Origin: Rhodospirillales bacterium
GTDB taxonomy: Bacteria; Pseudomonadota; Alphaproteobacteria; JAJFIK01
Direction of reading: 5' to 3'
Assembly (NCBI GenBank): GCA_021775005.1
Contig: JAJFIK010000064.1
Location: 1 to 60,601 of the forward strand
DNA: 60,601 nt
Position numbers and translations under genes: made by a program
Part shown: positions 34,191 through 39,132 of the stretch, one piece after another
Numbering within the stretch: position 1 is the first letter of the stretch
Layout: each line of letters starts with the position of its first letter
Notes under the pieces: generated by a model
Seen by the model: only the letters and a program-made list of their open reading frames with translations
What the model was told of the DNA's origin: nothing
Database searches by the model: none

Positions 34191-34219
34191 TTGAACCCCT
34201 GGCCTATATCGGCTATCTC
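34191..34219 (+). promoter_or_regulatory. Possible promoter of tRNA-Ser
   Basis: TTGAAC (34191-34196) and TATCTC (34214-34219) are separated by 17 bases and end eight bases before the tRNA. The -35 is good and the -10 is weak. The spacing and position fit a sigma-70 type tRNA promoter. Confidence 0.4.
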
Positions 34220-34226
34220 CGGCGAC

Positions 34227-34317
34227 GGAGAGGTGGCCGAGTGGCTGAAGGCGCGCCCCTGCTAAGGGTGTATACGTTAATAGCGTATCGAGGGTTCGAA
34301 TCCCTTCCTCTCCGCCA
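34227..34317 (+). tRNA. tRNA-Ser (GCU)
   Basis: The 91-base sequence folds as a type II tRNA with the CCA end encoded. The acceptor GGAGAGG pairs with CCTCTCC; the D arm is GCC-loop-GGC; the anticodon stem CGCCC/GGGTG (one G-T) closes the loop CTGCTAA, giving anticodon GCU for AGC and AGU codons. A long variable arm (ATACG/CGTAT) and the T arm (GAGGGTTCGAATCCCTT) follow. Its 3' end is repeated 164 bases downstream, which marks it as an integration site. Confidence 0.97.
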
Positions 34318-34318
34318 T
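34300..34318 (+). repeat. Left copy of 19-bp tRNA-end direct repeat
   Basis: atcccttcctctccgccat covers the T-arm end and acceptor 3' strand of tRNA-Ser and recurs exactly at 34464-34482. This is the expected crossover core of a site-specific element that uses tRNA genes. Confidence 0.8.
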
Positions 34319-34371
34319 AACAAAGGCCGCCCCAAAATGCGTTTGGCGCAAAGGGGGCGGCCTTTGTTATG
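34316..34371. terminator. Long stem-loop abutting tRNA-Ser 3' end
   Basis: An inverted repeat with arms CATAACAAAGGCCGCCCC and its complement surrounds a loop that contains its own TGCG/CGCA hairpin. It starts inside the encoded CCA end of the tRNA. It could terminate the tRNA transcript, although the T tract lies within the stem. Bases 34326-34353 recur near 37.7 kb. Confidence 0.55.
34326..34353. repeat. Left copy of 28-bp direct repeat
   Basis: The 28 bases starting gccgccccaaaatgcgtttg are identical to 37724-37751. The two copies lie just outside the AT-rich island, 3398 bases apart start to start, and each belongs to a GC-rich hairpin. Confidence 0.85.
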
Positions 34372-34463
34372 GTGAGGCGGCGTGGTGATTTGAGCGCCGT
34401 TCGACCGGACGTTTGGCGAACTTATCTCGCCTAGCAACGGCAGCGCAGGGCGAAGCCGAGCAC

Positions 34464-34482
34464 ATCCCTTCCTCTCCGCCAT
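34464..34482 (+). repeat. Second copy of tRNA-Ser 3' end (att-like)
   Basis: Exact repeat of the last 19 bases of tRNA-Ser (copy 1 at 34300-34318). The upstream bases do not match a tRNA, so it is not a second gene but a leftover of an integration event at the tRNA. Confidence 0.8.
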
Positions 34483-34497
34483 GCCGTCCTTGTCCAT

Positions 34498-34515
34498 ACC
34501 AAAAACTCTATCCGC
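34498..34515. repeat. Left copy of 18-bp direct repeat of the inner island
   Basis: accaaaaactctatccgc is identical to 37566-37583. The pair brackets the transposase remnant, the MocR regulator and the PLP enzyme, and could be the boundary of the inserted segment. Confidence 0.8.
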
Positions 34516-34765: not shown

Positions 34766-36172
34766 TCACACATTGTTGGCAACCGAGCAAAATGTTCTAA
34801 CTGCTCTTTCTGATGAGTCATTCCATTTGCCACTCCAACCCAACCGAACGTAGTTTGAAAAAGACTTAGTTGGCGAAAAGAGTGTGCCAGGAGCGACGCT
34901 AACTCCATGCTTGAGAGCTTCAATACGGACCTTCCGTGAGTCAATTGAAGTATCTAGCCCAATCCACAGTAAGGCACCGCCTTTCGGCAAATCAAATACG
35001 GCGTTTGGAAGGTTTCTGGCGACGATGTAAGCCATAGACTCAACCGTTTGCGAAAGCGAATTCTTAAGGCGAGCAATTTGTTTCCGATAACCACCTTCAG
35101 CAAGAAACTGCGCCAAGACTAACTGAAATTCGGCGGGAGTCGACAAATTGAGTGTGTACTTTATTGTGAGTGCCTTTTCATGATATGCCCCTGGTGCCAA
35201 CCATCCGACCCGGTACGCTGGCGATACAGTTTTGGAAAAAGATGAACAAAAAAGAACGGCATCGTTATCGTCGCGAGATTGCAGTGTGGAAAGTTCCTCT
35301 TCACCGAAATGCAAATCTCTATTTGTATCGTCTTCAATTATGGCAATTGAATTTTCAACTGCAGTTTTCACCAATTGATCCTTAATATCTTCAGAGATTA
35401 CACCACCTGTCGGATTCGAACAATTTGGCATGGCATATATAGCCGCGATCGAATGACTTCTGATTACTGAATTTAGTCGAGGAATATCAAGTCCGCCGAG
35501 TGAAGTTGTTGGAATTTCTATGGCTTTCATCTGTAGTGATTGCAAAATTTTCAAAAACCCAGGATAGCACGGTGTTTGAATGGCAATCGTGTCACCCCTA
35601 CTTGCAACACATCTCAATGCTATCCAAAGTGCTTCTTGGCAACCATTTGTGACAATGATTTCATCAGGCGACGTGTTTACTCCTCGCTCCAGCATTAGAC
35701 GACTAATGCCGCGCCGCATCGCAGGAAGTCCACGAGGATTTGGATACTCATAAAGTTCACGACAATGGGAACGAACAATTTTTCGTGTTAATCGATTAAG
35801 TTCTTCGCGGGCGACCAAATCTGGCTCCAATTGAGAAAGCCCCAATTGGGAAATTGAGCGATTGGAAGACTCGCCCAGCATTTCTGGCATCAAATCATCA
35901 AAATCTGACAACGAATGCGATTTGCGCGAAATCTCAGGTTCAACACTCATCGCTTCATGGCTTTGTCTGTTGTAAACGACAAAAAAGCCGGTTCTGGCGC
36001 GGGCCTCTATTAAGTCTTTGCCTTCCAAAATTTGATAGGCAGAAGCAACTGTTGCCATGCTAACATTTCGCAACTTCGCAATAGACCTCATCGAGGGAAT
36101 CTTTTGCCCGTAACAATAGGTTCCCTGAATGATAGATTGCCCCAATTCTTTCGCGAGTTTTTGGTACTTCAT
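34766..36172 (-). CDS. MocR-type GntR/aminotransferase regulator
   Basis: The 468-residue protein fuses a GntR winged helix (about 1-67; IQGTYCYGQKIPSMRSIAKLRNVSMATVASAYQILEGKDLIEARARTGFFV) to a fold-type I aminotransferase-like domain with the PLP lysine K314 in SSFSKTVSPAYRVGWLAPG and the preceding MPNCSNPTGG. MocR proteins sense PLP or amino-compounds and usually control a divergent gene. Here that gene is the PLP enzyme starting 126 bases away. The codon use is visibly AT-rich compared with neighbours, which suggests transfer. An ordinary aminotransferase activity is unlikely given the DNA-binding domain. Confidence 0.88.
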   Translation of the reverse strand: MKYQKLAKELGQSIIQGTYCYGQKIPSMRSIAKLRNVSMATVASAYQILEGKDLIEARARTGFFVVYNRQSHEAMSVEPEISRKSHSLSDFDDLMPEMLGESSNRSISQLGLSQLEPDLVAREELNRLTRKIVRSHCRELYEYPNPRGLPAMRRGISRLMLERGVNTSPDEIIVTNGCQEALWIALRCVASRGDTIAIQTPCYPGFLKILQSLQMKAIEIPTTSLGGLDIPRLNSVIRSHSIAAIYAMPNCSNPTGGVISEDIKDQLVKTAVENSIAIIEDDTNRDLHFGEEELSTLQSRDDNDAVLFCSSFSKTVSPAYRVGWLAPGAYHEKALTIKYTLNLSTPAEFQLVLAQFLAEGGYRKQIARLKNSLSQTVESMAYIVARNLPNAVFDLPKGGALLWIGLDTSIDSRKVRIEALKHGVSVAPGTLFSPTKSFSNYVRLGWSGKWNDSSERAVRTFCSVANNV

Positions 36173-36298
36173 TGCATACCAACCATCTGGCTGTATTGGT
36201 TCAAGTGAGTTGAAACTGTATCTATGACGGCTGAACCACTAGCGATATAGTCAACTATCCAATTCGTTACTGGGATAGTCAAATTCTGTGAGCCAAAG
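36173..36298. promoter_or_regulatory. Divergent promoter/operator region with repeats
   Basis: The 126 bases between the MocR regulator and the PLP enzyme gene hold the direct repeat ATAGTCAA at 36247-36254 and 36275-36282, the inverted repeat ATAGT/ACTAT (36247-36258), and a 7-base inverted pair ACTATCC/GGATAGT (36254-36260 and 36273-36279). A further TGGTTCA/TGAACCA inverted pair lies nearer the regulator. These are the likely MocR binding sites; MocR family members often bind direct repeats in such a gap. Confidence 0.6.
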
Positions 36299-37504
36299 AT
36301 GCCTCAATACAGAAAACCAATTCTGAGCATAGAATCAATCGCCACGAAAACATACCTAAGTGGCGATGTGTTTCCTCGCCCCCTAAGTAGTCCAATAATT
36401 CGTAGCTCCACTTTTGCCGCAAAATCGAGCGACGAACTCGCGCGAAACTATATGACGAAAGAGGTGTCGGGTGAGTTCTATCAACGCTTCGGCCACACAA
36501 GTGACTTGGATTTGGGAAAGAAGATGGCTGCACTAGAAGGCGCGGAGGTTGCAACGACGTTTGCCACCGGCATGGCAGCGATTTCTACCTCACTTTTGGC
36601 TCATCTGCCTGTTGGTTCTCATATTGTCGCAAGTGAGCAAATTTTTGAACAAACTTCTGCAGTTCTAAAATGGTTATCAGATGAAAGAAATGTTTCAGTG
36701 ACTTTTGTGGATACTCGTATTGTTGGAGACGTTGCATCTGCTGTCCAACCAAATACCCAAGTCATCTATGTTGAAACACCGTCAAATCCAGCCCTTTGGA
36801 TTAGTGACATCGGAGGCATTGGCGAAGTCGCAAAATCATGTGGAGCTCTGCTGTTTGTCGACAGCACTTTTGCAACTCCTCTTGTTCAACAGCCGATATC
36901 ATTGGGTGCATCATTGGTACTACACTCTGCAACGAAATTGATCAGTGGTCATATGGACGTCATGTGCGGTTTAGCGATTGGTGACAGAAGTGTTTTGGAA
37001 CCTATAGTTGGACTTAAGCAACTACTTGGCGGAATTATGGATCCACAAGCGAGCTGGCTGATTGAAAGAAGTTTGAGGACACTACCAGTTCGTGCGGAAA
37101 AGGCTTTCTCGACTGCCCATGAATTAGCCGAGTACCTGGATGGCACTAGCCGCGTAAAGGAGGTTCGCTATCCAATGTTGAAATCTTATGAGGGGTACGA
37201 AATTGCAAGCAAACAAATGAGCGCCGGTGGCAGTGTTGTAAGTTTTACTCTCCATGGTGGTTCGAAATCTGCAAAGGAATTTATCGACAATCTGCAGATT
37301 GTTCAGATCGCGAGCAGTTTGGGTGGGGTGGAAACAACAATTGAAATACCGAATGACCTCGATTGGAATGATGATGCTCCAGCAAAAGACCTGATCGCAA
37401 TCATTGATCCAGGGCTAATTCGTCTCTCCGTTGGATTGGAAAATTCAGCCGAACTGAAAGCGGATATTGATCGGGCATTGAGCTTAATTTCATCTGCTTT
37501 GTGA
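36299..37504 (+). CDS. Cys/Met metabolism PLP-dependent enzyme (trans-sulfuration family)
   Basis: The 401-residue protein belongs to the cystathionine/methionine gamma-lyase family (fold type I PLP). Residues seen: Y61-x-R63 in EFYQRFGHTS, which reach the neighbouring subunit's PLP phosphate; D188 in FVDSTFATP; PLP lysine K213 in SATKLISGH; and the carboxylate-binding R in LIRLSVGLEN. The usual active-site Tyr in the VYGGT-like loop is replaced by Phe (EQIFEQT, F116), and the SLGGVET motif is followed by EIPNDLDWND instead of SHPA. It may therefore act on an unusual substrate or catalyse a different reaction from the standard lyases. It is divergent from its probable MocR regulator and AT-rich. 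Confidence 0.87.
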   Translation: MPQYRKPILSIESIATKTYLSGDVFPRPLSSPIIRSSTFAAKSSDELARNYMTKEVSGEFYQRFGHTSDLDLGKKMAALEGAEVATTFATGMAAISTSLLAHLPVGSHIVASEQIFEQTSAVLKWLSDERNVSVTFVDTRIVGDVASAVQPNTQVIYVETPSNPALWISDIGGIGEVAKSCGALLFVDSTFATPLVQQPISLGASLVLHSATKLISGHMDVMCGLAIGDRSVLEPIVGLKQLLGGIMDPQASWLIERSLRTLPVRAEKAFSTAHELAEYLDGTSRVKEVRYPMLKSYEGYEIASKQMSAGGSVVSFTLHGGSKSAKEFIDNLQIVQIASSLGGVETTIEIPNDLDWNDDAPAKDLIAIIDPGLIRLSVGLENSAELKADIDRALSLISSAL

Positions 37505-37565
37505 CACGTTGTGATGCGATCGAGATAGAATGTTCCATAGGGACGAGGCATTGATTGCTGTGCCC

Positions 37566-37583
37566 ACCAAAAACTCTATCCGC
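37566..37583. repeat. Right copy of 18-bp direct repeat of the inner island
   Basis: accaaaaactctatccgc, identical to 34498-34515. It lies 62 bases after the PLP enzyme stop and marks the right boundary of the AT-rich segment. Confidence 0.8.
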
Positions 37584-37653
37584 CCAGTTCAGACGTCAGG
37601 TATTCCCTGTTTGGTGACGCAGATTTCTCTGGTACTGGACCGAATATTCTCCG

Positions 37654-37679
37654 TATTTTCCCTGTTGACAGGGAAAATA
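37654..37679. repeat. Perfect 12-bp-arm palindrome
   Basis: The arms TATTTTCCCTGT and ACAGGGAAAATA are perfectly complementary and separated by TG. A partial match (ATTCCCTGTTT) occurs about 50 bases upstream. Such TTCCCTGT/ACAGGGAA motifs accompany integrase-core transposon remnants in other Alphaproteobacteria as far as I recall, so this may be a transposon end. Confidence 0.55.
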
Positions 37680-37723
37680 TGAGAGACGGTTCGCTCTGGA
37701 CTGCCTCCACCGCATACAAAAGA

Positions 37724-37751
37724 GCCGCCCCAAAATGCGTTTGGCGCAAAG
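37724..37751. repeat. Right copy of 28-bp direct repeat
   Basis: Identical to 34326-34353. The roughly 20 bases before it (ccaccgcatacaaaagag) also resemble the tRNA-Ser 3' end and following bases with several mismatches, so this may be a degenerate right attachment site. Confidence 0.8.
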
Positions 37752-37864
37752 TGGGCGGGCCTCTCACCAACTCCATTGCTTTTGTGCTGTTTTATGTGGG
37801 GGTGCTGATCATCACTTTCATTGCCGGATATATTGCTTGGATGTGCCTTAAACCGCAGAAATAG
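37751..37864 (+). CDS. Possible small membrane protein
   Basis: A 37-codon frame from GTG at 37751 encodes one strong transmembrane segment (SIAFVLFYVGVLIITFIAGYIAWMCL) followed by KPQK. The same frame stays open to an ATG at 37679, which would give 61 residues but passes through the palindrome end and the 28-bp repeat. No convincing ribosome binding site is seen for either start. It may be a short membrane protein whose 5' end was replaced when the island inserted. The family is not recognised. Confidence 0.4.
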   Translation: MGGPLTNSIAFVLFYVGVLIITFIAGYIAWMCLKPQK

Positions 37865-38022
37865 GGGTGGTCCGGTTTGGCATTCTTTCCGCATTGCAAC
37901 AAAAGTGACGCCTGCGTCACTTTTACCCATACCCGCAAATTAAGCGTGGTCATACGGTTCAGGTCCCGATCAGGCCAGTGCGCCGGTACTCGGCCCCGTC
38001 GGGGCAAGAGGAGCCGTGTGCC

Positions 38023-39132
38023 ATGAAAGTCAATCTGGTCGACCACCCGCCCCGCGATATCCGGACTTTCGGTGACCCGGGCGAACTTGCCGATAAGCTG
38101 TCCCCTGAGGATGTCGAGATTGTACGGGAGATTTTCAATACGCCGCTGAAGGGGTCCTACAATTGGGACTATGAGAGCGCTAACGCCAAAATCCGCCGCC
38201 TCTATGAACTTGGTAAGCAGTTCAACTGGAATGCTGAGATGGATGTGGACTGGGATGTGCCGTTTGATATGGCCCAGGGTCCCTCGCAAGCGGGCATGAA
38301 CCCCTTTCATGACCACCCGGTTTTCCTGGCCATGAGTGACGAGCAGAAAAATAGCTATGCCTGGCGCTCGCTGGCGCAAGTGCTTTCCCAGTTTCTGCAC
38401 GGGGAGCAGGGCGCCATGATGGTGGCCTCGCAGTTGGTTTCCTGTGCGCCGACATATGACGCTAAATTATACGCCGCGTCGCAAACCTTTGATGAAGCCC
38501 GCCATGTAGAGGTATTCAACAAATACCTGCGCACCCGCTGTAAAGTGGAATATCCCATCAACCCCAGTTTGAAACTGTTGCTGGACAAGATCCTCACAGA
38601 TGAGCGCTGGGACTTGAAATTCATCGGCATGCAAGTGCTGATCGAAGGGCTCGCCTTAGCGGCGTTTCAGACTATGGCGCAAACAACGCGCGATCCATTG
38701 CTCCGCCAAATCGTGACCCTTGTGATGCGAGACGAAGGCCGTCATGTGGCATTCGGTGTCAACTATCTGGAAGACTGGATCAAAGCATTGACGGAAGAGG
38801 AAATCGAAGAGCGGGCGCAATTCGCCTACGAAGCTTGCGCCATTATGCGGGAGCGCTTGTTCTCAACTGTTGTGGAGGAAGAGTTCGGCTTCGACAAAGA
38901 GGAAGCGCGCCGCGCGAGCATCGATTCCGAAGGCGGCAAAGCGTTCCGCAACTTCCTGTTCGAGCGCATGATCCCCAATCTAAAACGGGTGGGACTGCTG
39001 ACGGAAAGCGTGCGGCCGAAATTTGAAGCTCTTGGCGTGTTGCATTATGAAAATGCGGCGTCCGATGCGGAGATCGATTGGGCGGCTCTGGAGCGGCCCT
39101 TGGAAACCGGCACCCTCGAAGCGGCAGAGTAA
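38023..39132 (+). CDS. Ferritin-like diiron protein (RNR R2-like fold)
   Basis: The 369-residue protein is a ferritin-like four-helix-bundle protein. Candidate diiron ligands fall on paired helices: E in FLHGEQGAMM, E and H in FDEARHVEVF, E in QVLIEGLALAAFQ and E and H in RDEGRHVAFG, the E...ExxH...E...ExxH pattern. This matches the R2/diiron-oxygenase superfamily and not storage ferritin. No partner reductase or large RNR subunit is adjacent, so it may be an oxidase or oxygenase of unknown substrate. The ATG at 38023 follows GAGGAG; an earlier in-frame GTG is possible. Confidence 0.82.
   Translation: MKVNLVDHPPRDIRTFGDPGELADKLSPEDVEIVREIFNTPLKGSYNWDYESANAKIRRLYELGKQFNWNAEMDVDWDVPFDMAQGPSQAGMNPFHDHPVFLAMSDEQKNSYAWRSLAQVLSQFLHGEQGAMMVASQLVSCAPTYDAKLYAASQTFDEARHVEVFNKYLRTRCKVEYPINPSLKLLLDKILTDERWDLKFIGMQVLIEGLALAAFQTMAQTTRDPLLRQIVTLVMRDEGRHVAFGVNYLEDWIKALTEEEIEERAQFAYEACAIMRERLFSTVVEEEFGFDKEEARRASIDSEGGKAFRNFLFERMIPNLKRVGLLTESVRPKFEALGVLHYENAASDAEIDWAALERPLETGTLEAAE

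Follow-up and report, generated by a model that had tools for sequence, protein, structure and literature searches.

A MocR-associated trans-sulfuration-type PLP enzyme with a loop phenylalanine, on a separate branch of its family

What can an enzyme of the trans-sulfuration type be expected to do when the tyrosine of its active-site loop is a phenylalanine and its gene faces that of a dedicated regulator? This question is raised by two divergent genes in the window, that is, the whole 60,601-nucleotide stretch of DNA that was analysed. One of these, an intact open reading frame on the plus strand (36299..37504), encodes a PLP-dependent enzyme of Cys/Met metabolism (401 aa; PF01053), and the other, on the minus strand (34766..36172), encodes a 468-aa MocR-type regulator that combines a GntR helix-turn-helix (HTH) domain with an aminotransferase-like domain (PF00392 and PF00155). 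The first-pass annotation covered positions 36173-37504, which comprise the enzyme gene and the 126-bp intergenic region, with the MocR gene lying outside. The answer that we tentatively favour is that the enzyme, under MocR control, acts on an activated amino acid that bears a good leaving group and catalyses either its elimination or a gamma-replacement; if this is right, the substrates to be considered would be few and could be approached by a direct genetic test.

The family membership of the enzyme is clear: the PF01053 profile matches it with an E value of 1.9e-102 and 343.2 bits, against a Pfam gathering score of 27, and the PLP lysine, K213, is present. Alignment shows that Lys213 (within HSATK), Tyr61/Arg63 (YQR), Asp188, Ser340 and Arg375 are retained, in agreement with the first-pass annotation, which had named the catalytic lysine and the subunit-bridging Tyr/Arg as conserved; along with Lys213, Tyr61/Arg63 and Phe116, the protein carries SLGGVETTIEIPNDLDW. 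Two departures from the common pattern that had been pointed out are equally real, namely Phe116 at the loop position that is Tyr in E. coli MetB and MetC and in MegL, and the sequence TIEIPNDLDW following SLGGVET, in place of LI.HPA.MTH. The AF2 model of the enzyme (pLDDT 82.3; residues 1-30 disordered or poorly predicted) is nearest in fold to a methionine gamma-lyase (MGL), 3jw9. With cystathionine gamma-synthase/gamma-lyase (CGS/CGL; E. coli MetB and relatives), the enzyme has in common the fold, the SLGGVE motif and the catalytic lysine, whereas the MetB-type Arg, Glu and Tyr are all missing: the fifth residue past the loop Tyr position is Ala121 instead of Arg, Ser339 takes the place of the Glu that precedes SLGG, and the Tyr is Phe116. 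Furthermore, Gln118 occupies the position of Cys116 of MGL. The Arg and Glu positions in the loop and before SLGG, and the Cys position of MGL, are those that we take to govern specificity for cystathionine and methionine, as in human CGL and MGL. Because the MetB-type Arg and Glu are lost and Gln stands at the MGL Cys position, the enzyme is atypical both as a cystathionine enzyme and as an MGL.

In a tree that included MGL, O-succinylhomoserine sulfhydrylase (OSHS), CGS/CGL and cystathionine beta-lyase (CBL) rows, the enzyme groups only with two proteins from gammaproteobacterial MAGs (loci L004 and L005), with support of 100/100 and a stem of 1.19. The two relatives are 46-48% identical to the window enzyme, and both keep Phe116 and the changed loop, so that Phe together with the catalytic set is found in 3/3 members. 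A profile built from the three scores them at 742-772 bits, and no other protein exceeds 336 bits. Judging from tree and profile, the subfamily is a separate deep branch of the PF01053 family; if so, a well-studied enzyme family would gain a further, as yet unassigned branch, one in which the general acid was lost a second time. The subfamily appears to be rare: no further member was detected in 385 genomes of the host's class, 398 of its phylum, 296 of the order to which L004's genome belongs, or 39 of the family and 369 of the class of L005's genome, these samples being overlapping subsets of the available genomes. A scan of genome contigs relied on patterns derived from one protein, which distant members would escape.

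The loop phenylalanine had been presented as a mark of an atypical enzyme, and in this respect the annotation has to be revised. Phe is found at the same position in MetZ-type rows and in the solved OSHS chains PDB 9iqh and 3ndn, which rules it out as a unique feature of the enzyme and makes it a feature shared with MetZ. PDB 3NDN is the metZ product of M. tuberculosis, for which a review lists genetic validation (PMC12910592). Given that OSHS and the window subfamily belong to separate clades, Phe probably arose twice. As to its meaning, the loop Tyr of methionine gamma-lyase has been shown, with a Tyr-to-Phe mutant, to serve as the general acid for the departing group (PMC9307983), and Phe at this position therefore suggests substrates with a leaving group that needs no proton; in OSHS, itself a Phe-bearing enzyme, the leaving group is succinate. 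By this analogy, what Phe indicates is a leaving group that departs without help from an acid, and not a novel active site.

The preferred reading can now be stated more fully. The enzyme would be a fold-type-I, CGS-like catalyst by which an activated amino acid loses its beta- or gamma-substituent or has it exchanged for another, with Phe in place of the general-acid Tyr, as in the O-succinylhomoserine sulfhydrylases, within an otherwise different pocket. Plausible substrates would be those whose leaving group needs no protonation, for example O-acyl- or O-phospho-homoserine, S-oxides and sulfonium compounds; free methionine and cystathionine would be unlikely ones.

Of the competing explanations, the one that survives best, while still being unlikely, is that the enzyme is a divergent methionine gamma-lyase or a cysteine/homocysteine lyase, that is, a catabolic enzyme that yields a thiol and a 2-oxo acid and is switched on through MocR in the presence of a sulfur amino acid. 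The enzyme reaches none of the NCBIfam equivalog cut-offs, and its top score is that for methionine gamma-lyase (TIGR01328); the best PDB matches, by sequence as well as by fold, are methionine gamma-lyases (3jw9, 5dx5), with which it shares the PLP lysine, the Tyr/Arg phosphate-site residues, the carboxylate Arg and an uncharged distal pocket, the residues at the two cystathionine-binding positions being uncharged as in MGL. However, the score in question, 314.3 bits, is far under the cut-off of 549.7, the identity is only ~35%, both MGL hallmarks are replaced (Tyr114 by Phe116 and Cys116 by Gln118), IPNDLDW stands in the place of HPASMTH, and in the tree the MGLs form a clade to which the window enzyme and its two relatives do not belong.

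Considerably less probable is an alternative O-succinyl- or O-acetyl-homoserine sulfhydrylase of the MetZ type that would carry out direct sulfhydrylation for the host. The two proteins belong to the same superfamily and share the Phe at the catalytic Tyr position, TIGR01325 matches the enzyme with 275.6 bits, and the host has no obvious MetZ, since the other two Cys/Met homologs found there are of the CGS/CGL and CBL types. Against this, 275.6 bits falls well below the cut-off of 510, MetZ-type rows are only 31-33% identical to the enzyme and differ in the loop and the C-terminal segment, and the enzyme contains neither NNLGD..SLITHPATTTH nor the FGS/FGT loop and falls outside the OSHS clade, which stands alone at 100/99. 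In addition, such rarity and a private MocR would be surprising in a housekeeping enzyme, and no link to MocR was seen for MetZ, unlike the window enzyme. The CGS/CGL-type gene of the host lies next to a gene for a cystathionine beta-synthase-like protein; as the host already possesses this gene and the CBL-type one, the window enzyme is, by the look of this gene set, dispensable for basic trans-sulfuration. It is very improbable that the enzyme is an amino-acid racemase or some other PLP enzyme of this fold that does not eliminate, the loss of the Tyr acid then marking the loss of elimination: the family does include L-alanine/L-glutamate racemases (NF041088; 9iz5/TM1270), but the match of 251 bits is far under the cut-off of 629, and OSHS is an example of gamma-replacement by an enzyme with Phe.

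The regulator is a MocR protein with a GntR HTH, a fold-type-I aminotransferase domain and the PLP lysine K314 in an FSK motif, and yet it reaches none of the cut-offs of the named MocR families in NCBIfam (PdxR, GabR, EhuR and YczR), the best score being 260.9 against 320 for PdxR. With the MocR/GabR/PdxR regulators (NF052282, NF052285) it shares the domain architecture, the EDD and FSK motifs and the location divergent to a gene for a PLP enzyme; it differs from the named ones in that its presumed target is an enzyme of the trans-sulfuration type. When its own genome was searched with the MocR profile, nothing else matched strongly, the single other match being marginal (E 8e-4). In L004 and L005, orthologs of the regulator (38% and 35% identical, respectively) are encoded at a distance of ~2 kb from the enzyme, and the MocR-enzyme pairing is thus conserved across lineages; all three MocR proteins contain EDDTN. 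If this association is right, a branch of the enzyme family is tied to a type of regulator whose ligands are usually amino acids. Given the recurrent pairing, found in two other genomes by the neighbourhood check, the absence of the enzyme from any curated equivalog and its own deep branch, it is reasonable to speak, as was done at the outset, of a private regulator and of a compound that is not yet assigned. A literature search found no papers that tie MocR to methionine gamma-lyase.

MocR genes are often divergent to positively regulated targets, and repression of the regulator's own gene combined with activation of the neighbour is the norm that has been described (PMC5320631). The preferred reading would accommodate this arrangement, with the two genes forming a horizontally acquired MocR divergon: the C-terminal domain of the regulator probably senses PLP plus a ligand of the amino-acid type, and MocR would control the facing enzyme gene and probably its own gene too. 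MocR and the Cys/Met enzyme family meet more than once, locus L016 (G034:C6) being another case: there, a MocR gene (1-1485, +), whose product is ~28% identical and has EDDYD at the corresponding motif, is convergent with a gene for a canonical, Tyr-containing Cys/Met enzyme (1501-2757, -).

In the two relatives, the pair does not stand alone. L004 and L005 share a cluster of seven genes, five of which were compared directly (47-56% identity), that encode an ABM-like protein (a name based on how its sequence looks; Pfam gives no match), an enoyl-CoA hydratase, MocR, a DsbA/HCCA-isomerase-like protein, a VioD/GntC/PRK07324-like PLP enzyme, the present enzyme and a class-V PLP enzyme. The partners are not beside the enzyme gene in the window, and a search of the host genome for the VioD/GntC-like one found none. 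The description of the locus as a self-contained module holds locally and fails for both relatives, in which the pair belongs to this PLP-rich cluster of seven genes. The cluster can be compared with gamma-substitution enzymes of special metabolism, the CGS-like CndF, Fub7 and Mur24 and also GntC, a likeness of enzyme types (vinylglycine-ketimine or related chemistry) and not a demonstrated sequence equivalence (PMC10367076). Since CGS-type and GntC-type enzymes both use an intermediate of the vinylglycine-ketimine type in gamma-substitution (PMC10367076), their joint presence suggests the handling of a gamma-activated amino acid, and the cluster may accordingly be dedicated to an unusual amino acid. 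It is conceivable, if doubtful, that the pair in the window is what transfer has brought here, in minimal form, of a PLP-rich seven-gene pathway that has yet to be described, makes or degrades a non-canonical amino acid and is governed by a new group of MocR regulators with a changed PLP site (EDDTN). In any case, the cluster is a concrete lead to an amino-acid pathway not yet described. Beyond the shared genes, a long run of PLP-enzyme genes with IS-like genes nearby extends over L004 (8655-13130) and L059 (706-1632), and the extra genes in L004's genome encode a second DsbA-like protein, a GNAT protein, a PLP decarboxylase, a CuyA-like PLP enzyme and an EamA-type exporter.

Where could the regulator bind? 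MocR boxes number two to four and commonly combine direct and inverted repeats (PMC5320631); in the present divergent arrangement, the repeated boxes are candidates only. The 126-bp region between the two open reading frames (36173..36298) contains promoter-like hexamers on both strands, in a number that equals chance. The operator-like repeats that had been reported are indeed there: ATAGTCAA occurs twice on the plus strand, at 36247..36254, where it overlaps a promoter-like TATAGT (36246-36251, +), and at 36275..36282, where it overlaps a promoter-like TTGACT on the minus strand, and ACTATCC (36254) and GGATAGT (36273) form an inverted pair (36254..36279), the left arm of which coincides with a -10-like GATAGT of the minus strand. 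Their proposed function fares less well: against dinucleotide-shuffled versions of the intergenic region, the ATAGTCAA direct repeat is borderline (P = 0.058; P = 0.018 for direct and inverted repeats together), and the intergenic regions of L004 and L005 lack it, which rules out ATAGTCAA as a conserved operator. A better candidate footprint is CTGTATCT (36216..36223, +), which at present is the best candidate for a MocR box; its core, TGTATCT, is found in 4/5 divergent intergenic regions of three lineages, an outcome achieved by some 7-mer in 0.25% of shuffles (P = 0.0025). A second direct copy of CTGTAT lies at 36191..36196 (+), 25 bp upstream of the copy at 36216, and a pair with a spacing of 24 bp is present in L005; such pairs, the spacing of which was noticed post hoc, are unique in those sequences.

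The MocR and enzyme genes are of foreign origin. Their GC3 is 0.39-0.40, against 0.55-0.68 in eight neighbours, and they lie downstream of a tRNA-Ser(GCT) gene (34227..34317, +; ARAGORN) up to which the gene order is the same in the congener G001 and beyond which it is different, with neither MocR nor the enzyme there. Because of the low GC3, the position downstream of tRNA-Ser and the absence from the same site in G001, we conclude that the pair was horizontally acquired. The synteny with G001 stops at a perfect 19-bp copy (34464..34482, +) of the tRNA 3' end (34300-34318); a direct repeat with an exact 18-bp core brackets the module (34491..34515 and 37559..37583, both +), and an outer 35-bp repeat on the right flank of the island (37724..37758, +) matches the hairpin sequence downstream of the tRNA (34326-34360) in 34/35 positions. 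The segments 34227-34515 and 37559-37758 together resemble a tRNA hot spot at which insertion has happened more than once and has left remnants. No integrase or transposase reading frame was seen in the foreign segment. A viral origin was rejected, given that no viral contig contains a relative and the repeat sequences are absent from viral contigs, and so was a plasmid origin, the best plasmid matches being only 37-38% identical and of the megL type; the right flank has no match in plasmids or phages. In an Rfam scan, only tRNA-Ser scored above the gathering score, so that a likeness of the right flank to tRNA-linked integrative elements stays tentative; a match to the sX4 sRNA over tRNA-Ser and the downstream hairpin (34208-34455, +) falls short of its gathering score (34.7 bits against 70). 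A role in defence was discarded for want of a PADLOC match. To the right of the island, at 37978-39132 (+), lies a gene for an AurF-like/ferritin-like diiron protein that may be lineage-specific as well, since its relatives in congeners are only 30-35% identical.
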